Source: an uncultured Bacteroidales bacterium
GTDB lineage: Bacteria > Bacteroidota > Bacteroidia > Bacteroidales > Muribaculaceae
Assembly: GCA_902796035.1 (NCBI GenBank)
Contig: CADBNR010000021.1
Span: 1-60,108, forward strand
Direction of reading: 5' to 3'
DNA: 60,108 nucleotides
Made by a program: the position numbers and the translations under genes. Shown here piece by piece: positions 25,754 to 38,253 of this stretch (its first letter is position 1; each line of letters begins with the position of its first letter). The notes below the pieces were generated by a model. That model was not told the origin of the DNA, ran no database searches, and was given only the letters and a program-made list of their open reading frames with translations.

Positions 25754-28700
25754 CTACCTTGCCAGCGACACGTTCACCGCAATGCCGTAGTTGGAATTGC
25801 TGGTGGGATATGCGTTGTTGGACACTAACGGGGTGTTGGTCTGATGGTCGAAGAACATGGAGAGCGTGATGCGCTTCGACAGCTGGTAGCTGGCCATGAA
25901 ATTGACGGAGAACGTCTCGGTGCCCTGAGTGGCCTGCGTGTATGCGGTCTCTATGCGCCGTATCAGCGACTGGTTATGGCTCCACGAAAAATCCAGGTTC
26001 AGCGTCAGGTCATTGCTCACCATGCCCTGCTTGCTACCTATCTTCAGTATCTTGTTGAAGTTGGCAATCTTATAACCAGCACCCACCTGCAGCTGCTTGC
26101 TGGACGTCTCCACAATCTGACCCGCCGAAGTGTTGAGATTCAGCGTACGGGCGTCACGGTATTCGGCGTTGAGCGTCAGATCATTGTTCATCGTGACCTT
26201 AAGACCGATCAACGGGGCGAATTTTTCGGTAATCGCAACGGACGGTATATTGAACGGAGACGAGGGCTGAGGCGCCTGGGTCTGTTCGTTCATCACGAAA
26301 CCATTATTGCCCATACCGTTGCCCACCCAGTTCATATAGCTGGAATAGGATCCGATGGAGTAAGTGCACTGATAAGCATGGTTCAACGTAATCGACTTGA
26401 ACCAGCGACGCAGGTTGCCGATATTTATGAGGCCGTCGTAAGTGACACGCCAGTTGGGGAGCATCGACGACAGGCCGGGGAACAGGTTCAGGGTCTGCTT
26501 GCCGGGCTTTGTGCCTGTGTAAGCGGCTAAGAATGCCGGAATGAGCACATCGGGACTGGTGGGACTGACGCCGCCGTTCTTGCCGTCGTATTCGGCACCG
26601 GCGTATGGAGTGCCCTCCAGGAATCCCGTTGTGGGATAATTGGTCCCGGCATACTGGGCCTCTACCCTTGCGGCTACCTGAGGGATATACTCCAGGAAGT
26701 TGTTGAATTCCTTGGACGCGTAGCCATTGGAAGCCTTGCTGGTACGCATGGCCGTGGCTATGGCGCAATGCGTGCGCACATACGATCCCGAGAATGTGGT
26801 GGGATTGCCGGCGTACATGAACTGCATCTGCTCGGTTCGGCTTTCGGTCAGGTTGGACGTCAGCAATATCTTAAGGCCGCGTACCGGCTCAAGGTTCAGT
26901 TCAAAGTTGAATTCGTTGCTCTTGTTCCACAATGCGGGCGAGATCTGCTCGCTGTCAGTGATGAGCCAGCCGCGTTCCAGTGCCTTGTCCACGTATCCCT
27001 TGTCATAGAAACCGAAAGCGAAGTCCAGACCGGGCGTCATGGGTCCGTGGCTGTTATTCTGTCCGAATATGTCGCCTACGTTAGGCGCGAAGAGCGGCAG
27101 ATTCAGCGAATGACCGCTGCGCCAGCGAAAAGATGCGGAACGCACCATCATCAGGAAACGCAGCGAATGGTCGGCTATCTCCTGGCCGAGGCCCGGCTTG
27201 TCGGCGTTGGGCATCTGCGATATCAGCAGTTTCACCTGCTGATGTCCGGTGTCGGTGATCTGGATGGTGTTGGCATCCTTAACTTTATAGTTGAGCTTTC
27301 GGCGCTTTCCGTCCACTTCGGCCGACAGACGAAGTTTCTTGGTGTTAAGATTATGCTTCACGGTTATGGCCGTGTCGGCGAGCTGGATGGCCCGTTCCAC
27401 TTTCTTGACCTTGCTGTTCTTGTCATCGGTTTCCTTACCGGTCTTAAGCGCACCTTTGCCCTTTTCGTTCTTTCCCTTGTTGCGGTCGTTGTTACGGTTG
27501 CGGGCCGAACTTGAGGCGGAAAAACGCTTGTTGATGCGCTGCAGATACTTCGATTTGTTGTACAATGTCTCGAAATTGAACTTGGCGTCTGCGTTCCAGT
27601 TGCTCTGGTTCTGGATGGAATTGCCAAGGTATATGTCATCGACCGTGGCGCCCTTGTCCCAACGGTAGGTGGAATTGTAAGACACGTTGCCCGACAGATA
27701 GTCGAGGAACGGAATCTTATTGAACGGAGCGCGATAGGTTGCCGTGAAAGTCTGGTTATAGTTCCATGGCGTACCGAGACCCTTGAGCGATGACATAACA
27801 GTGTCTTTCCACTGCTTGTACCTGTCGGGGAACAGTTTTTTGTTCACGGCGCCGATGGTCTCCTCTATTCGCGCCGTGGTGTTGGATGCAAAACTGAGCT
27901 GGAGCGACTTTATAAGGTTCCAGTTGATGGAAAGCTGACGGTCCCACGTGAAATTCTTGCTGACCTGCACGGGGAGCTGGAAATCCACGTCCACCTCGCT
28001 GCGCGTCTGCTGCTCGTAATAGTACCTGTGCATCGACGTATAGAACGTCAGGCTCTGGAACAGCCAGTTTATCTCCCAGTCCTTCAGGAATTTGGCGGCG
28101 CGTTTCTTGCTCTTGATCCATGAGAACGGCTTCAGGGGCTTGAAGTATGGCGTATAGCTGTACTGGAACGATCCGCGATAGTCGCGGGTGTTCTCGTATT
28201 CAGTGGTCGGATCTACGTTGCGCTGCTTGTTGAACGAGAAGTTCAGCTGGAAGTTGGCCGGATCCCATGGCATCGGCTTCTTGCTCTGCACGTTGAAGCG
28301 GAAGTTTGAGATCGAGAAACTCTCCACGCTCTTGCGCGTCACGGCATACGACTTGATTGAATCCTTCTCATGCTTTGTCGCGGCGGCGGCTAAGGCGTCC
28401 TTAAGCAGAATATCCTGATCAAGCGGGTTATAGCGCGGCGTGGTGGTTTCCTCCGACTTGCTGTAATATATGGGTGCCGACAGCTTTGCCTTCTCGGGCA
28501 GGATCTTACCGGCATCCGCCTGTACGGATACATTATACTGGTTGTACGTGTCAAGACGGCGTGACGAGAGTCCCTGATCCACGGCGCCGAAACCGTCGGT
28601 CTCGCGATGCCAGGTGAAGTTGACGTTGGCTATATCGGATATGGACAGCGCGGCGTTGGCGTTGACTGCCCAGCCTCCGTTCTCGTTGAAGTCGGTGACA

Positions 28701-31700
28701 CGCATTTCGTTGACCCATATTATGCCGTCCTTGACCGAGTTGGAACGGTTGCGGATACCTATCAGCATGACGCGCACGTCGCTCAGGCTGGGATTACCGA
28801 GCACCGAAATTGTGTTGTGAGCGTTTTCCGGATCCTGCTCGCTGTACAGCATGGTGTAGCCCACGCCTGCGGTGCCGGCGCTCTTGTCGCGGTTGCGGTG
28901 CACCTTGACGGCAGGGAAATTGTCGAGTGCTATGTCCAGATAGTTTGACTGCGGCCATACGATGGAACGGTCACGCGAGCTGTAGAGGCTGTACTGTCCG
29001 AAGGGTGTCAGCTCCAGGGGTACCTCGTATTCGTAATAGTTATTCTTGACGTCGGAACCGATGCGGAGGAACACCGAGAGGTCGCCGTTCTTCAGGTCAG
29101 TGTGGTCGCCCACAAGGGCCTCGGCGTGCGTCCACATCTGCAGGCGCTTGTAGATGCGCAGGTCCATCTGGGTGTTCTTGTACACGCCGCGCGCATCGCC
29201 GGGTTGCAGACCCTGTACCTTCAGCTGCAGTGACTGTTCGTTCAGCAGGGTGGCCTGGGTGGAGCCGGCATCCTGGGCACGGTCCACGCCGGGAGGCAGG
29301 ATATAGTTCACCGGCTCACGGCTTGAGTTCTCCTCGATGTTAACCACGGTCTGCGACAGCTCGCCCTCGGCCGGAGAATCGTTGCGCGAGTTGAGGTTGA
29401 ACTTATAGTCGCGCCATTCGCCGCGCACAAGCTCGAGTGTCGCGAAACGCAGATGAGTCACCTCGCGGAAGCCGGTCATGAACATGCGGATGAACCGAAT
29501 GGTGGAGAAATCGTTGATGCCGCCCACCACCTTATCGGGTTGCGTCAAGGGTATCTTGAACTGATACCATACGGAACGCTTCTTACCGGCAACGGTAGGC
29601 ACTTCCTGCTCTATCTTGTCGGTGATGAAGTTGCGCCCTACCTCAAGGTCCTGCGGGCGCAGCGACACCTTGTACTGGAAGTAACGCTCGTATTCGTTCA
29701 GGGTGTTGTCCTGGTTTATGTCCTCCACATCGGGGACGGCGCGGGCCGACTGATACTGCGGATTGTCGGACTGCTCGGGGCTGAGCGAGTTACCCTCCAC
29801 GCCGTTGTAATGCTTGTAACGGTCCAACAGCCGGCTGCGGTGCTCGTCATACCAGTTGGAACGATAGAAATGATAATTGTCGCCTGCAGGGTCGTTGAAT
29901 GCCGAGAAGGGATCGTCCTGCATCTCGGCTATGCGGGACGGGCTGAGACGCGCGCGCAGTTTGTCGAGATAGTCTTTGTACGAGCCGAACGTGAACTCAT
30001 CCTCGTTGGGAAGGCCATCGAGACCCACGTCCTGAAGCAGACGCGCGTCGGGAGCGTTCTCGAACGCGTATGTCAGGGAGTTCTGACGCGACACGCGGCC
30101 CCAGTTGGTCTCGGTGAGCCATTGGTTATCTCCGTCAACAGGAAGTCCGTTCTCGTAGCTCTTAAGTCCATCCTTAAGTATGTCCTCGCTGATTTCGCCG
30201 AGGTTGAAGTACAGGTCGCCGCCGTCGGTGTTGGGGTTGTCGGGGTCCAGGAACGGGTCCATCAGCCAGAACTGGATGTACTCCACGTTGTTGGAATCGA
30301 AGTTGGAGTTGTCCATCTTGCGCATTATTCCGCCCCAGCGTCGCTCTGGATTGAGCAGGTTCCCCTGGTCGTCGATGTTCTCGGCGTCAAGGTTGTAGGG
30401 GCCGCGCTCGCGGGGATAGAACGAGAGGTTGAGGGTCTGTATCCAGTTGGCCTCGCCATACTGCAGTTCGCGGTTGGGGAACAGCTCGGTCATGGTGATC
30501 TCGCGCACGTAGGGGTTGGCCATCTGTTCGGGGTCGTTCTTCAGATAGCCGGGGATGGTGCTTGAGTTGCGCTGCGTCCATGTGCGGTCTATGTAATACC
30601 ACGACAGCAGGGCGCGGTTCTTGCCGTAATCCACGTTGTTGGACAGTGCGGCCTCGGGGAACAGGGCGTCGGCTCCCGGGTCGTAGGGCGTGGAGGCCAT
30701 GAACCATGAATAGGGACTGCGAAGGTCGATGGATGTCTGCGAGGCCTCGAAGTCGTCGATATAGCTTGAACCTTTGCTTGATCCGCTTTTCTGCTTGTGC
30801 GGAATCAGCTGGGCGAACTCGGCGTTGACGCTGAACTGCGACGGTGCCGTCGACTTGATGGTCGGAATCTTGTTCAACAGGTTGGTGAGCCACATGAACT
30901 GCTTGTTGTACGACAGGTTCAAGCCCCACATGGTGTTGTTGATGATCTCCTCGCCCATATTCACCTTCTTGGTCAGGGCTTTTTCGGAGAAATGCATCAG
31001 CGTGGCGCCGATGGTCAGGTCCTTGTTGAAACGGTACTGTGCGTCCAGACCCACTAACGTCTTGCGCTGCATGGAGAACAGCGACTGGTTCTCGAGCGTG
31101 ACGCTGACGTTGGTGCCGGAGTCGATGATGCTCTGGTTGGTGATGGTGACTATACCCATGGAATAGTCCACGGTATAGTCGGAATTTTCGGTCAGCACCA
31201 CGCCGCCGGCCATTACCACTACGGAACCTCGGGGCACGTTCATGGCGTTGAGGCGTATTGTGGCGCCACCAGACGACTGGTATTCACCCACCAGCGAGAA
31301 CTTGTTCTTGTCGGCGAACTGACGGGCCACTATCAGCGTGGAGTCGTACAGCTCGTAGTAGCAGTAATCCTTGGCTATGGCTTCGTTGCCTATCTTTGAG
31401 GCGAGATGGCGTCCGAAAGGTTCGGCCACGGGGAAGATGATCTTGCCGTTGGACGACTGCACGGTGTAACCCTCGATGTAATCGAAGAATCCGTCAGGGT
31501 TCGATTCCTGGTTGGAGTCGATGCGATCCAGGTTCATGACCTGAAGCAGCGGCTGGTTGCTGATGGGAGGCACCGGCAGGAAATTGATCATGGTTCCTGT
31601 GGTGTCGCTCAGATACTTCACCTGCATCTTGAAGTTCTGGCTCTGCATCTGATAGGCTCCAAGCGAATAGATGTTCTTCATCATCAGCTTCCACATCGGG

Positions 31701-33292
31701 AGCTTGGGCGAGACGGTGGTGCTCCGCAGCATCTTCAGGTAAAGTGACTCGCTGGTGGTGGTGACGTCGCTCGAGAACTCGCCCACCTGATACACGCGAC
31801 CGTTGTAGGTGTATTCGTATGCCACAGCCAGGACCTCATCGGTGTTGAGCGGCGACTTCAGCGAAATGTAGCCGAGATCGTCGTTGAGGGTGTATTCGCT
31901 TGAATTGAGCAGACGCGCGGACTCCACCTTCTCGAAGTCGCGTCCGCCCGTGATGCCGTATGCCTCAAGGGGCGTGAGGGCCTGAGTCACCTGGTTGATG
32001 TTGCGTGCGCCGGGATATTCGCTCTTGATGATCTGCAGCAGGTTGTTTGACTGATTGCTGGGATTGTCGAACGACAGGTCGGGCGTCCAGTAGTCGCTGG
32101 CCAAACGGTGGTTCTCGCCCAGGTCCATGAAGCCGACAAAGTTACGGCTCTGCTGATAGTTGGAGTTCTTGTTGGTGATCCAAACTTCGATGCGCGTGAT
32201 CTTGATACCGGACGCCACATGCGGCAGACGTGCGGCGAACCGGTCGTAATTGTCGTAGAAATACTGCGCCAGGAAAAAGTGCCGGTTGGCGTCGTAATTA
32301 TCGCACTTCACCTCGAACTTGGTGCTCTGCACGCCGCCCTGTGTGCTGACTGTTTTGGACTCGGAGTTCTGCTGCGACACCAATCCGGTCAGGGTCAGAT
32401 TGCCGAACTGGAACTTGCCCTTGACACCGAACAGCGACGTACCTCCGCGGATCAGACTCGATCCGGTGGTCATGCTGATGTTGCCGACTTCGAAATTCTT
32501 GACTATCTCGTCCTCCTTTCCTTCATACGCCAGTTTCAGGTTCTTGGAATCGAAATCGAACGTAGCGTCGGTGTTGTAAGTCATGTTGAACTTCAGTTTG
32601 TCGCCCACCGACGCGTTGATGGTGGCCTGTATCTTGGAATCGAAGTCGAAGTATGTCTTGCGGCGGTTGCGCTTGGTCAGCGCGGGATTGTCGGTCTTGT
32701 TGCTCTTGACGCCCAACGACAGCTGAATGGAACCCTGCGTCTGCAGACGGACGCCGCCGGGGCCGAACACCTTTTCAAGAGGCCCGAGGCTGAAGTTCAT
32801 GTCGAATATATTGAAGGGTTCCTTGTCCTTCTTCTCGAAGGTCTCGGTGTTGCGCGAATTGAAATAGGAATACATATCGCGCCGCATCATCATGTTTTCG
32901 TACTGGTCGGGCGTCATCATGTAGGGAGTGGTGATGACGTGGTCGCCTACCATGGTCTTGAACACATACAGGCCTAATTCGGGATCGTACTCTACTTCGG
33001 TCTTGACGTTGGAGGGGTCGCGGAGGTCGGCTGGATATTCGGGGTTATTGTAGTCGTCGTATCCACGTGGCACGGTGGGATGCACACGGCCCGGAAGCAG
33101 CAGGGTGTCGGCCTGCGAATCACCGGCACCGACAGGAGGAAGCACAGTCTCCACCGGAGGTGTGGAGGGAGGCTCCTTAAGTTCGGATTTGTAATACTGC
33201 GGCAGCGCTATAATGCCAAAGGGCAGTACCGCTATCAGTACCGCCATAAACATTACTATTTTACGCAATCTATTACCGCTTACAAACTTCAA
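25754..33292 (-). CDS. sprA: Type IX secretion translocon SprA (Sov)
   Basis: A 2512-aa protein matching the giant SprA/Sov outer-membrane barrel, the export channel of the type IX secretion system. Features: an N-terminal membrane/signal segment (KIVMFMAVLIAVLPFGIIAL), the early block SLGPLEKVFGPGGVRLQTQGS, repeated barrel strands such as KLKFNMTYNTDATFDFDSKNLKLAYEGKED and GTSLFGVKGKFQFGNLTLTG, and the C-terminal strand region ending NSNYGIAVNVSLAR. The family is usually 2,400-2,500 aa, so this is complete. The first codon is TTG at 33292, overlapping the ruvA stop; an ATG at 33253 (MFMAV) would lose the charged n-region. It is the last gene of recR-GNAT-ruvA-sprA. The gene at 2-1705 has a sorting-like tail and may be a cargo. 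Confidence 0.96.
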   Translation of the reverse strand: MKFVSGNRLRKIVMFMAVLIAVLPFGIIALPQYYKSELKEPPSTPPVETVLPPVGAGDSQADTLLLPGRVHPTVPRGYDDYNNPEYPADLRDPSNVKTEVEYDPELGLYVFKTMVGDHVITTPYMMTPDQYENMMMRRDMYSYFNSRNTETFEKKDKEPFNIFDMNFSLGPLEKVFGPGGVRLQTQGSIQLSLGVKSNKTDNPALTKRNRRKTYFDFDSKIQATINASVGDKLKFNMTYNTDATFDFDSKNLKLAYEGKEDEIVKNFEVGNISMTTGSSLIRGGTSLFGVKGKFQFGNLTLTGLVSQQNSESKTVSTQGGVQSTKFEVKCDNYDANRHFFLAQYFYDNYDRFAARLPHVASGIKITRIEVWITNKNSNYQQSRNFVGFMDLGENHRLASDYWTPDLSFDNPSNQSNNLLQIIKSEYPGARNINQVTQALTPLEAYGITGGRDFEKVESARLLNSSEYTLNDDLGYISLKSPLNTDEVLAVAYEYTYNGRVYQVGEFSSDVTTTSESLYLKMLRSTTVSPKLPMWKLMMKNIYSLGAYQMQSQNFKMQVKYLSDTTGTMINFLPVPPISNQPLLQVMNLDRIDSNQESNPDGFFDYIEGYTVQSSNGKIIFPVAEPFGRHLASKIGNEAIAKDYCYYELYDSTLIVARQFADKNKFSLVGEYQSSGGATIRLNAMNVPRGSVVVMAGGVVLTENSDYTVDYSMGIVTITNQSIIDSGTNVSVTLENQSLFSMQRKTLVGLDAQYRFNKDLTIGATLMHFSEKALTKKVNMGEEIINNTMWGLNLSYNKQFMWLTNLLNKIPTIKSTAPSQFSVNAEFAQLIPHKQKSGSSKGSSYIDDFEASQTSIDLRSPYSWFMASTPYDPGADALFPEAALSNNVDYGKNRALLSWYYIDRTWTQRNSSTIPGYLKNDPEQMANPYVREITMTELFPNRELQYGEANWIQTLNLSFYPRERGPYNLDAENIDDQGNLLNPERRWGGIMRKMDNSNFDSNNVEYIQFWLMDPFLDPDNPNTDGGDLYFNLGEISEDILKDGLKSYENGLPVDGDNQWLTETNWGRVSRQNSLTYAFENAPDARLLQDVGLDGLPNEDEFTFGSYKDYLDKLRARLSPSRIAEMQDDPFSAFNDPAGDNYHFYRSNWYDEHRSRLLDRYKHYNGVEGNSLSPEQSDNPQYQSARAVPDVEDINQDNTLNEYERYFQYKVSLRPQDLEVGRNFITDKIEQEVPTVAGKKRSVWYQFKIPLTQPDKVVGGINDFSTIRFIRMFMTGFREVTHLRFATLELVRGEWRDYKFNLNSRNDSPAEGELSQTVVNIEENSSREPVNYILPPGVDRAQDAGSTQATLLNEQSLQLKVQGLQPGDARGVYKNTQMDLRIYKRLQMWTHAEALVGDHTDLKNGDLSVFLRIGSDVKNNYYEYEVPLELTPFGQYSLYSSRDRSIVWPQSNYLDIALDNFPAVKVHRNRDKSAGTAGVGYTMLYSEQDPENAHNTISVLGNPSLSDVRVMLIGIRNRSNSVKDGIIWVNEMRVTDFNENGGWAVNANAALSISDIANVNFTWHRETDGFGAVDQGLSSRRLDTYNQYNVSVQADAGKILPEKAKLSAPIYYSKSEETTTPRYNPLDQDILLKDALAAAATKHEKDSIKSYAVTRKSVESFSISNFRFNVQSKKPMPWDPANFQLNFSFNKQRNVDPTTEYENTRDYRGSFQYSYTPYFKPLKPFSWIKSKKRAAKFLKDWEINWLFQSLTFYTSMHRYYYEQQTRSEVDVDFQLPVQVSKNFTWDRQLSINWNLIKSLQLSFASNTTARIEETIGAVNKKLFPDRYKQWKDTVMSSLKGLGTPWNYNQTFTATYRAPFNKIPFLDYLSGNVSYNSTYRWDKGATVDDIYLGNSIQNQSNWNADAKFNFETLYNKSKYLQRINKRFSASSSARNRNNDRNKGKNEKGKGALKTGKETDDKNSKVKKVERAIQLADTAITVKHNLNTKKLRLSAEVDGKRRKLNYKVKDANTIQITDTGHQQVKLLISQMPNADKPGLGQEIADHSLRFLMMVRSASFRWRSGHSLNLPLFAPNVGDIFGQNNSHGPMTPGLDFAFGFYDKGYVDKALERGWLITDSEQISPALWNKSNEFNFELNLEPVRGLKILLTSNLTESRTEQMQFMYAGNPTTFSGSYVRTHCAIATAMRTSKASNGYASKEFNNFLEYIPQVAARVEAQYAGTNYPTTGFLEGTPYAGAEYDGKNGGVSPTSPDVLIPAFLAAYTGTKPGKQTLNLFPGLSSMLPNWRVTYDGLINIGNLRRWFKSITLNHAYQCTYSIGSYSSYMNWVGNGMGNNGFVMNEQTQAPQPSSPFNIPSVAITEKFAPLIGLKVTMNNDLTLNAEYRDARTLNLNTSAGQIVETSSKQLQVGAGYKIANFNKILKIGSKQGMVSNDLTLNLDFSWSHNQSLIRRIETAYTQATQGTETFSVNFMASYQLSKRITLSMFFDHQTNTPLVSNNAYPTSNSNYGIAVNVSLAR

Positions 33293-35089: not shown

Positions 35090-35216
35090 TTTATGCTTTT
35101 GTTATCACGTTATTGTGAATTATTAACCAACCTCACAGGCATGTCGGTTGTTAATACTTCGAATATTAACCGCACGCAAGGATTCAGGTCCCCCGAGTGC
35201 ATCAAACATTATCGAT

Positions 35217-35459
35217 ATGAACACCGATGCTTTGAAAAAGAGTGCCACGGAAGCAAAAGAAGCCGCACAGGACTTCATGAACAGCCCTCAGGTGCAGGGT
35301 GCTATCGACAAGGGCAAGGAAGCCCTGGAGAAAGGCAAGGAATGGCTCAGCGGGCCCGAGGGTCAGAAATACGTCCAGAAAGGCAAAGAAATGCTTGAAG
35401 ATGTCAAGGACAAAGTGGGCGATTTCATGAATGATAAATTCGGTTCCGACAAGAAATAA
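35217..35459 (+). CDS. Small soluble helical protein
   Basis: 80 aa from MNTDALKKSATEAKEAAQ, chosen over an upstream in-frame ATG at 35148 because that would add a stretch of 23 residues without pattern. Highly charged and alpha-helical: a repeated GKEALEKGKEWL, GKEMLEDVKDKVGDFM heptad-like pattern, no membrane span, no cysteine. It looks like a small amphipathic stress-type protein; I do not recognise a named family. It is transcribed alone on the plus strand, divergent from recR, with a hairpin terminator 32 bp after the stop. Confidence 0.65.
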   Translation: MNTDALKKSATEAKEAAQDFMNSPQVQGAIDKGKEALEKGKEWLSGPEGQKYVQKGKEMLEDVKDKVGDFMNDKFGSDKK

Positions 35460-35490: not shown

Positions 35491-35525
35491 CCGTCGCATA
35501 GCCGCCTATGCGGCGGATTGTGTTT
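35491..35525 (+). terminator. Terminator of the small helical protein gene
   Basis: CCGTCGCATAG (35491-35501), CCGC loop, CTATGCGGCGG (35506-35516): an 11-bp stem with one G-T pair, followed by ATTGTGTTT. Confidence 0.7.
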
Positions 35526-36813
35526 AATTATAGCGGGCGTATATCTCGTTGCCTAACTTCTTTGCCTTGTCTATGTCGGCCTTGTTGTCGGGATTGACGC
35601 CATACTTGGACAGAGGAGGCACCACAACCTTTGTTCCCGGACGTATGCGGTCCGGATGGCCAAGGATTTTTTCATTTTCCTTGTAGATATATGGCCACAG
35701 GTGATAATTGCCGTAATGGTCCTTGGCCATAGTTGTCAGGTATCGGGTCTTTGTTATAGTGTCATACACTTTCTTGTCGGACGGCTGAGTAGGAACTGTC
35801 GGTTCGGCTTCAGGCTCCGGAGCCGATTGCTCCAATATCTGCTCCTTGCCGACAGGCTCGGCTTCGGCTTTTGATTCATCAGGCACTCCTTCCGGGACAT
35901 GAGTCGTAGCATTATTTACTGTTATGGCCTCGGACGCAGGCTTGGGTTTGGCCTCGGCCATACGCTCGGTAGAAAGCACACCATACTGGCACAGTGTCCA
36001 TACCGCAACAAACGCAATCAGACAGGCGGCAGCGAATCCAACTAAGAAGCCCGGCCAAAAGCGTTTCTTTGGAATGGCTGGAATTTCAGAGTCTTCAGAA
36101 ATATCAGGATCTTCAGAGTCCTTAAGGTCCTTAAGGTCCTTAAGGTCCTTAGGGTCCTTAAAGTCCTTAGGGTCTTTAGGGTCCTTAGGGTCCTTAGGGT
36201 CCTTAAGGTCCTTAAAGTCCTTAGGGTCTTTAGGGTCCTTAGGGTCGTCATCGGAATTGGGGGATTCTTCCGAAGCGGGTTGAATGGTTTCCGGCTGTTC
36301 CGGAATTGATTCGGCTGCGTATTCCTGCACCGACTCACGCTCAAGCTCAGCCTCTGCCATCACTTCCGGCTCCTCCAACTCATAGACGGTGCTTGCGAAC
36401 GGTACGTCGCAGACCGGTTCCGGTTCTGTTGATTCCGATTCCTCCAGCTCTGTGACTGCATCATCCGTAAGTTCAATGGTCTGAAACATGCTGAACGGTT
36501 CGTTCACAGTGGCCGAGAGTTCCTTGGACGCCATGTACACTATCTTGCGATGACCCGGTATCAACGTCTCCTCGCCGGTGTTGACGTTCACGCTCTTGCG
36601 GGCCTCGACCTCGATGCTCTTGAACACTCCCAATCCGGGGACCTTGACACTCTCTCCTTTCTCAAGCTCGCCGGCAATCAGGGCGAACAGTTCGCGCAGA
36701 AAATCTTCGGTCTGGCGTTTTGTGTCGCCGGTGCGTACCGACAGCCGTGCCGTCAGCCCCGCCAACGTCACTTTCTCACTATCTCGTTTGCGCTCTTCAA
36801 TATTCTCGCTCAT
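35524..36813 (-). CDS. HU-like DNA-binding domain / membrane span / LysM protein
   Basis: 429 aa with an unusual order. Residues ~15-110 are an HU/IHF-type DNA-binding domain (VTLAGLTARLSVRTGDTKRQ, GESVKVPGLGVFKSIEVE, ending SATVNEPF). An acidic linker follows, then 14 tripeptide units of the KD type (PKD, FKD, LKD; residues ~190-232, DNA 36117-36249), then KKRFWPGFLVGFAAACLIAFVAVW as one membrane span near 255-275. Residues ~345-400 form a LysM-like domain (YLTTMAKDHYGNYHLWPYIYKENE, IRPGTKVVVPPL). Positive residues just before the span place the HU part in the cytoplasm and LysM in the periplasm. It could tie the nucleoid to peptidoglycan; that is inference. ATG 36813 overlaps the stop of the upstream HU gene (ATGA), so an apparent longer N-terminus is spurious. 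Confidence 0.85.
   Translation of the reverse strand: MSENIEERKRDSEKVTLAGLTARLSVRTGDTKRQTEDFLRELFALIAGELEKGESVKVPGLGVFKSIEVEARKSVNVNTGEETLIPGHRKIVYMASKELSATVNEPFSMFQTIELTDDAVTELEESESTEPEPVCDVPFASTVYELEEPEVMAEAELERESVQEYAAESIPEQPETIQPASEESPNSDDDPKDPKDPKDFKDLKDPKDPKDPKDPKDFKDPKDLKDLKDLKDSEDPDISEDSEIPAIPKKRFWPGFLVGFAAACLIAFVAVWTLCQYGVLSTERMAEAKPKPASEAITVNNATTHVPEGVPDESKAEAEPVGKEQILEQSAPEPEAEPTVPTQPSDKKVYDTITKTRYLTTMAKDHYGNYHLWPYIYKENEKILGHPDRIRPGTKVVVPPLSKYGVNPDNKADIDKAKKLGNEIYARYN
36117..36249 (-). repeat. Period-9 tandem repeat coding the KD tripeptides
   Basis: About 14 units of 9 bp, plus strand TCCTTAAGG, TCCTTAGGG, TCCTTAAAG or TCTTTAGGG. The most frequent unit equals the 9-mer in the intergenic hairpin at 20711-20746. 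Length change by whole units keeps the reading frame. Confidence 0.9.
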
Positions 36814-37088
36814 GATTGACGTACCTTGAGTTTTAGCATTGTGGAGGGTCGGAATGTAACCGACAATTTCGGGGGTATCAATATGCGTCGGCCTGTGGAG
36901 GGATGCATCGTGATGCGTTCCATCCGTTTCTTGGGTTCGAACGATCCGAACGAGGGCACGGCCACGCTGTCGCCTTCGGCCAGCACCTCGCCGATCACTC
37001 CGGCAAGCTGCTCGCACAGCAGCGTCACATCCTGCGGCTCCCGCTCAAGGCGTCGACCTAATTCTTCCGTCAGTTGTTTTGCGTCCAT
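36810..37088 (-). CDS. HU/IHF-type DNA-binding protein
   Basis: A 92-aa HU-fold protein: MDAKQLTEELGRRLEREPQDVTLLCEQLAGVIGEVLAEGDSVAVPSFGSFEPKKRMER, then ILIPPKLSVTFRPSTMLKLKV. The G-FGSFE turn and the C-terminal strand RPST are HU hallmarks. ATG 37088 gives the normal length; two upstream in-frame ATGs would add residues without pattern. It overlaps the HU-membrane-LysM gene by 4 bp, so the two are coupled and may dimerise. A canonical promoter lies 64 bp upstream. Confidence 0.88.
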   Translation of the reverse strand: MDAKQLTEELGRRLEREPQDVTLLCEQLAGVIGEVLAEGDSVAVPSFGSFEPKKRMERITMHPSTGRRILIPPKLSVTFRPSTMLKLKVRQS

Positions 37089-37308: not shown

Positions 37309-38253
37309 TTACTTCAGTTTCAGCACCTGGCCGGCCTGAATCTTGTCGACGTGGCTCAGTTTGTTGAGTCGCCTCAGTGTCGTGGCCGACATACCGTAGG
37401 AACGGGCTATCGACGACAGTGTGTCACCGCGCTTAACCGTGTATGTGCTCTGGGTGTTGGATGCTGCATGATAGCTGTTGCCGTCTGTCTTGGCCAGCGC
37501 ATTGCGCTTGGGAGCGTAGTTACGGGGCTGGGTGTACGTCTTCTTGCTGAATGTATATGTGTCGGTATGGGTGGTGCGGTTGGCAAAATCGAAAATTGCC
37601 GATGGATTGATGGCATAACCCATGTAACGCGTCTCGAAATGCAGGTGCGGGCCTGTGCTTCGTCCTGTGTTGCCACCCAGGGCTATGGGCTGTCCGGCCC
37701 TTACGGTCTGTTCAGGTTTCACCAGCGCTTTGGTTAGATGGCCGTAAATGGACTCCAGTCCGTTGGGGTGACGAAGAATCACATAGTTGCCGTAACCCTT
37801 GGCCTCGTAGTTGGTGAGACGCACCTTGCCGTCGAACGCGGCATAGATGGTGTCACGCATCTTGATACCCATGTCGATGCCCTTGTGCATACGGCCGAAC
37901 TTGGCGCGATAGCCATAGTTGGACGTGATGCGGATGTTCTTGACAGGCATGTGATAGCCTGTTACATCTATAACCTGCTGGTTGGGCACGTCCTTCTCCT
38001 GGAAAGGATTCACACGTTTTGAGTTCCAGCCTTCGGTATAGATGTCGATCTCAGGCTCCAGATCCTCGATCAGGTCGATGAACGTGTTTTGTTCTATCAA
38101 CTTAATCTGATCGGAACTTTTGGTCTGCGAGGCCAGCAGCTGCTTGTGCATCTGCGAGTGCGGGTTCTTCGAGCGTACGTTCTGAGCCTGCGCTCCCATA
38201 CACGCCATGGCTACAAGTAACGTTCCGCTTAATATCTTCCTTATCTGTATCAT
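37309..38253 (-). CDS. Secreted M23 endopeptidase with C-terminal LysM
   Basis: 314 aa with a signal peptide (ILSGTLLVAMACMGAQA, then Q). The catalytic LytM/M23 domain spans ~100-220: MHKGIDMG gives the first zinc ligands (H and D) and TGPHLHFETR the last (HxH). A C-terminal LysM (YTVKRGDTLSSIARSYGMSATTLRRLNKLSHVDKIQAGQVLKLK) anchors it to peptidoglycan. M23 enzymes cut peptide cross-bridges or act as activators when degenerate; the metal ligands here look intact, so it is likely an active DD-endopeptidase of cell-wall remodelling. It follows ndk by 31 bp and ends at a strong terminator. Confidence 0.92.
   Translation of the reverse strand: MIQIRKILSGTLLVAMACMGAQAQNVRSKNPHSQMHKQLLASQTKSSDQIKLIEQNTFIDLIEDLEPEIDIYTEGWNSKRVNPFQEKDVPNQQVIDVTGYHMPVKNIRITSNYGYRAKFGRMHKGIDMGIKMRDTIYAAFDGKVRLTNYEAKGYGNYVILRHPNGLESIYGHLTKALVKPEQTVRAGQPIALGGNTGRSTGPHLHFETRYMGYAINPSAIFDFANRTTHTDTYTFSKKTYTQPRNYAPKRNALAKTDGNSYHAASNTQSTYTVKRGDTLSSIARSYGMSATTLRRLNKLSHVDKIQAGQVLKLK

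Follow-up and report, generated by a model that had tools for sequence, protein, structure and literature searches.

A conserved gene pair of Bacteroidales encodes a stand-alone HU protein and a membrane-spanning HU-LysM-type fusion that may link DNA to the cell wall

The subject of this report is a pair of overlapping genes on the minus strand of the window, by which we mean the whole stretch of 60,108 nucleotides that was analyzed. The source genome comprises 2.2 Mb in 76 contigs, with the pair on contig C21; among the best 80 matches kept, its closest named relatives are mostly MAGs labeled Muribaculaceae or Porphyromonadaceae. The first gene of the pair encodes a small, stand-alone HU protein, and the second encodes a fusion in which an HU domain precedes a linker, a membrane span, and a LysM-type domain (Table 1). 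The original prediction had described two coupled genes with a short overlap and a 429-residue fusion product, and its coordinates, lengths, and overlap were all exact. The acidic linker and KD-repeat spacer that it noted are also present, the latter encoded by a tandemly repeated 9-bp unit.

Table 1. Features of the HU/HU-LysM gene pair (positions in the window)
Feature	Position	Strand	Remarks
Stand-alone HU gene (P0002), 92 aa	36810-37088	minus	conserved partner; PF00216, AlphaFold, and Foldseek
HU / acidic linker / KD repeat / membrane span / LysM-type fusion (P0001), 429 aa	35524-36813	minus	
ATGA overlap, 4 bp: HU stop and fusion start codon	36810-36813	minus	
Fusion HU domain, residues 17-107	36493-36765	minus	arm present; tip Val where HU has Pro
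KD-rich spacer, predicted cytoplasmic, residues about 190-232	36118-36246	minus	in-frame 9-bp tandem repeat, 14.3 copies
Membrane helix, residues 253-276	35986-36057	minus	KKR before helix, on HU side
LysM-type domain and conserved C-terminal helix, residues 349-428	35530-35769	minus	predicted periplasmic
Strong stem-loop	35485-35522		terminator-like as read on the plus strand; between fusion and convergent YtxH-like ORF

Across the stem-loop from the pair lies a small, lysine-rich ORF (35148-35459, plus strand) having a weak YtxH-like match (E 0.04). Just upstream of the pair, and adjoining a nucleoside diphosphate kinase gene, is a gene for an M23 peptidase whose LysM domain is clear (37309-38253, minus strand); of 78 loci, 16 have related M23-type ORFs close to the pair. 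A 2512-aa ORF occupies 25754-33292 (minus strand); it presumably resembles the gliding/secretion protein SprA, and we take its neighbor to be RuvA-like.

The original prediction of an HU-like domain is backed for both proteins by profile, model, and structure search. The Pfam model PF00216, with a cut-off of 22.4 bits, matches the stand-alone protein at 67.7 bits (E 1.1e-18) and the fusion at 64 bits (E 1.5e-17). AlphaFold returns HU topology for the stand-alone protein (mean pLDDT 95.2) and for residues 21-110 of the fusion (block mean pLDDT 88-97), the latter within a model that reaches an overall pTM of just 0.34 and has linker stretches mostly of low confidence. Further, HU/IHF-type structures make up all of the best 50 Foldseek matches listed for each of the two models. 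The NCBIfam IHF and HU models give matches far below their own cut-offs.

The C-terminal domain of the fusion, a putative divergent LysM by its modeled fold and profile matches, is the weakest point of the domain assignment. Residues 349-398 are confidently modeled by AlphaFold as a beta-alpha-alpha-beta unit, and the C-terminal helix follows. When the family profile was compared with PDB sequences, the best non-HU relatives of the fusion were Kbp (7pvc, 5.4e-10) and the LysM of phage gp61 (9g8s, 5.6e-8); the NCBIfam model PRK11198 matches residues 342-400 with an E of 1.6e-7, but its 31.9 bits are far under the cut-off of 134. The Pfam LysM model (PF01476) is absent from the fusion's matches at E 1 and, at E 0.01, from those of all 62 members aligned; among eight fusions of a distant family (f131, described below), it gives two matches below the cut-off. 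No LysM entry is found among the best 50 Foldseek matches listed for the fusion model. Since all of these are HU-type, the Foldseek result leaves the C-terminal fold untouched. The LysM-like assignment of the original prediction thus draws on the modeled fold and the profile relation to Kbp and gp61, but it does not extend to the Pfam cut-off.

The HU and LysM-type parts are present in a single ORF in 147 of 150 loci, which rules out chance or a mis-called ORF as the origin of the fusion. The three exceptions are two loci cut by a contig end (L081 and L129) and one that is split into two ORFs (L124). Once repeats among the 150 loci, copies of the window among them, are set aside, 126 distinct fusions remain. 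At first pass, an HU gene was located on the same strand, at most 264 bp upstream, in 122 of these 126, and it overlaps the fusion by 1-17 bp in 76 of the 122. The remaining four loci were rechecked: three have the partner in a longer open frame, and at the other (L105) the contig ends. The upstream HU gene is therefore present in all 125 distinct loci with upstream DNA.

Forty further Muribaculaceae loci (L168-L207), three of which duplicate earlier sequences, were taken from genomes matched by the fusion. Upstream DNA is present for 39 of them, L200 being cut off, and 38 of these 39 have the partner HU gene; L170 (G074:C67) is the sole locus with upstream DNA where no partner HU was found. 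At L204, the partner is present, and the HU and LysM parts of the fusion lie in different frames. Among 78 loci, no other neighbor comes close to the HU gene in constancy. The commonest unrelated cluster occurs in 26 of the 78, and a functional neighbor beyond the HU gene was rejected on this count. A putative MoxR/DUF58-like operon follows the pair in 16 of the 78.

Pairing this close to universal argues strongly that the two proteins act jointly. The coupling that the original prediction described for a single pair of genes extends to many families and to f131 (8 of 8 loci). We conclude that the HU-LysM gene pair is a real, conserved two-gene module, and it is probably old.

A search with the fusion sequence matched 138 of 148 genomes of its own family and 29 of 29 genera, partial matches counted. 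The profile search of 295 Bacteroidales genomes gave matches at E <= 1e-20 in 55 genomes and, counted by hand from the result tables, 18 of 109 families; weaker matches were mostly ordinary HU genes. All 29 loci that were fully read, from 11 of the 18 families, have both the fusion and the upstream HU gene. The single match in family f19 has its two halves in separate ORFs. Of 508 candidate stretches from named genomes, 487 were confirmed as relatives; the names among the best 80 kept include Muribaculaceae, Barnesiella, Coprobacter secundus, and Candidatus Caccoplasma. Among 296 genomes of the phylum, the only matches at E <= 1e-20 outside Bacteroidales were in f131, a family of another class, conceivably Balneolaceae; by hand count, 30 of its 35 genomes match at this level, versus 0 of 258 other genomes. 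The eight f131 loci that were fully read all share this architecture, and in each an HU gene lies upstream and overlaps the fusion, by 1 to 20 bp when the longest ORF is taken.

The arrangement of the fusion in the membrane is predicted consistently by its relatives. A single membrane helix is present in the AlphaFold model, and one strong hydrophobic stretch occurs in 125 of the 126 distinct fusions. In 117 of the 126, the HU side has more lysine and arginine among the 12 flanking residues than the other side; the two sides are equal in seven, and the HU side has fewer in two (means of 3.22 for the HU side and 1.06 for the other). By the positive-inside rule, a positively charged flank stays cytoplasmic; this charge excess therefore places the HU domain inside and the LysM-type domain outside, as the original prediction had it from one span with positive residues on its HU side. 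The reverse topology is disfavored, as it agrees with the charges of only two of the 126. Cytoplasmic linkers are 37-241 residues long, with a mean of 136. Low-complexity linkers occur in relatives too, with EP repeats in L159 and RSD repeats in L010, which suggests selection on length and charge, not on sequence.

The DNA-binding arms were compared in 166 fusions, of which 163 are unique; arm classes come from the profile alignment, and nine of the 163 rows are unclassed and stand outside the counts. Where the fusion is armed (n=107), the net charge of the partner's arm is +3 to +6, and the partner retains the tip proline in 106. Where the fusion is armless (n=35), the partner's arm has a net charge of -4 to +2, a range that does not overlap the former. 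The stand-alone HU of the window has an arm net charge of +5 and the tip HPSTG, with its proline present; the arm of the window's fusion is weakly charged. Armed Bacteroidales fusions have Val or Ile at the position of the intercalating proline of HU in 110 of 111, the other having a gap, and the fusion HU domain has a net charge near zero (mean +0.4 in 107 armed members). Proline is found at the fusion tip in all eight f131 fusions, and both tips of the pair have it in all eight.

The arm is deleted in 11 fusions of the first set of 126, a set that leans toward sequences like the fusion of the window. The 40 further Muribaculaceae loci, read by hand, comprise 31 armless, seven armed, and two unclear fusions, and the armless ones retain the pair, the span, and the LysM-type domain. 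For comparison, 30 HU loci were fetched, of which 25 were read, and two of these proved to be partners from the pair itself. The other 23 (of 28 ordinary HU loci) are ordinary HU genes from 15 armless genomes; they serve as a control and have arm charges of +2 to +4, sharing only the value of +2 with the armless partners. Isoleucine occupies the tip in 13 of these 23, so a change at the tip alone is no proof of lost DNA binding, and the tip valine was ruled out as such proof. A tree that includes 11 armless rows puts them in two groups (of nine and two) and needs one or two arm losses; the rows are thus related, and the charge contrast does not represent 142 independent events. That both arms change jointly fits the two halves of one DNA-binding dimer. 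Conversely, the existence of armless members means that DNA binding is not common to the whole family.

According to the original prediction, no function had been described for this arrangement. Indeed, no paper on an HU-LysM protein is among the top matches listed from the open-licence PMC literature, but the same general design is known with SPOR. One paper lists a LysM protein of B. thetaiotaomicron and a protein of the HU family as separate table entries (PMC10434189). The HU-CCDC81/SPOR proteins (PF18174, PF18175, a span, and PF05036) resemble the fusion in having a cytoplasmic HU, one span, and a C-terminal domain of a wall-binding type. They differ in having two diverged tandem HU domains per chain and SPOR rather than LysM, whereas the fusion has an ordinary HU, a LysM-type domain, and its own HU partner gene. 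Given that an HU family bearing SPOR is known, anchoring HU to the wall is no new idea; Burroughs et al. (Cell Cycle 2017) reportedly predicted that this family acts in chromosome partition.

At E 0.001, PF18174 is found in 264 of the 295 Bacteroidales that were sampled, the source genome among them, and in 255 the match is above the cut-off. The HU-CCDC81 protein of that genome (L167 586-1671, G000:C28) has HU-CCDC81_bac_1 and _2, one span, and a weak SPOR (E 0.065), while SPOR is over the cut-off in six of the seven HU-CCDC81 proteins scanned; the two designs thus coexist in one genome. For the fusion of the window, PF18174, PF18175, and SPOR are all unlisted by Pfam at E 1. Its partner scores 18.5 bits with PF18174, under the cut-off of 26, and PF18175 matches six of 62 fusions at E 0.01, the best at 7e-4. 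By these profile scores, the HU-LysM fusion lacks the membership features of the HU-CCDC81/SPOR family.

HubP/FimV offers another parallel. These proteins resemble the predicted layout of the fusion in having a single span, with LysM on the periplasmic side and an acidic part in the cytoplasm; unlike it, they have the LysM at the N-terminus and TPR instead of HU, and they act via client proteins (PMC12918733). The same source states that the LysM of FimV binds peptidoglycan, that HubP localizes oriC to the pole, and that FimV of P. putida has no apparent role in chromosome segregation (PMC12918733). No FimV/TPR-type Pfam family is listed for the fusion, and its LysM-type domain is C-terminal, not N-terminal. 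Because of the reversed order and the TPR end, the fusion at most works like HubP/FimV. RocS of Streptococcus likewise combines DNA-binding and membrane-binding parts in one chromosome-segregation protein, but it has an amphipathic helix and a coiled coil, with no span or wall domain named in the abstract (PMC11500499).

Other relatives share the HU fold itself. The IHF alpha/beta and HU alpha/beta heterodimers consist of HU-fold chains (PF00216), as does the likely pair described here, but in the latter one chain is fused to a membrane anchor. HU-HIG proteins (PF18291) have a related HU domain, and 35 of 62 fusions match this model at E 0.01; two of the eight distant fusions pass its cut-off. 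Both proteins of the window differ from HU-HIG in that they are under the PF18291 cut-off and score far higher with PF00216.

For the armed members, including that of the window, we favor a nucleoid tether formed by a wall-anchored HU heterodimer, a reading to which we would give slightly less than an even chance. The two-gene operon would yield a soluble small HU and a membrane-borne HU, probably at matched levels, and the two chains would form a heterodimer at the cytoplasmic side of the membrane, as their genetic pairing and the co-variation of their arms lead us to infer. The sequence supports a fusion that crosses the membrane once with its N-terminus inside, and the C-terminal LysM-type domain would then sit on peptidoglycan. 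In armed members, the basic arm of the partner would be that of a normal HU, and the fusion would add a weaker arm. Such a dimer could hold chromosomal DNA, without strong sequence preference, at membrane sites fixed to the wall, with a linker of about 145 residues, flexible and largely acidic, to span the distance. Within Muribaculaceae, one or two lineages would have kept the pair and either reduced the DNA contact or exchanged it for another ligand. The nucleoid-to-wall tether of the original prediction accordingly remains plausible where the partner has a basic arm with its proline (106 of 107 armed partners), but armless Muribaculaceae speak against it as a family-wide rule. Against the tether stand the near-neutral HU domain of the fusion, its Val/Ile tips, the armless majority (31 of 40), the partnerless L170, and the failure of Pfam to recognize the LysM. 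More tentatively still, the module may represent an undescribed, ancient DNA-to-wall linkage, in which an obligate HU heterodimer with one subunit spanning the membrane and gripping peptidoglycan is found in Bacteroidales and a distant class and is convertible to another kind of wall anchor by joint arm loss; as a whole, this proposal is possible but doubtful.

The same observations could be accommodated by a wall-anchored scaffold or landmark, in which the HU heterodimer binds protein instead of DNA and joins a client complex to the wall. CCDC81-type HU domains are predicted to bind protein, and models of this type give weak matches in 12 and 6 of 62 members at E 0.01. An armless clade that keeps the pair, span, and LysM-type domain without arm or basic charge would be expected of a scaffold, as would an HU domain that is near neutral even in armed fusions; HubP/FimV is built on similar lines, with its periplasmic LysM, single span, and acidic cytoplasmic part (PMC12918733). 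We nevertheless regard a scaffold as unlikely, because the arm is basic in 107 of 107 armed partners and retains the tip proline in all but one, and because the pairs of the distant class have proline at both tips in all eight cases.

The remaining alternatives concern the periplasmic end. Kbp and phage gp61 are not classical wall binders, and they are the closest non-HU relatives of the LysM-type domain by profile; with the Pfam LysM model unreached in 62 of 62 aligned members, the domain could sense an ion or mediate protein contacts, like Kbp or the LysM-like domains of phage tails, and tether nothing to the wall. The predicted periplasmic location of the domain argues against this, as does the binding of sacculi by the periplasmic LysM of FimV (PMC12918733), and we consider it improbable. 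The chance seems slimmer yet that the fusion is a membrane-bound regulator whose LysM-type domain senses the state of the wall while the HU pair alters transcription at particular sites. A DNA-binding-type domain inside, one span, and a periplasmic domain would suit a regulator in the style of ToxR/CadC, but the 78 loci contain no constant neighbor beyond the HU gene that could serve as a target. HU is not a sequence-specific activator fold, which also counts against a regulator.

How chromosomes are fixed to the envelope is an old question, and few physical tethers are known. A single protein with a chromosomal packaging fold at one end and a wall-binding-type fold at the other makes this question directly testable. 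Further, the armed and armless lineages constitute a natural experiment: if the favored DNA tether is correct, only armed members would carry DNA to the wall.

Two further observations concern the arm tips. The partner tip in f131 (L159-L166) is unusual, reading YNPHY in six of eight and YSPHH in two of eight, and the fusion keeps NPxT; the arm pattern of f131 thus looks different from, and perhaps opposite to, that of Bacteroidales. Finally, a second type of stand-alone HU, with RNISKN or a similar tip replacing NPxT, exists beside ordinary HU at G000:C5 (L002) and in several of L217-L235.
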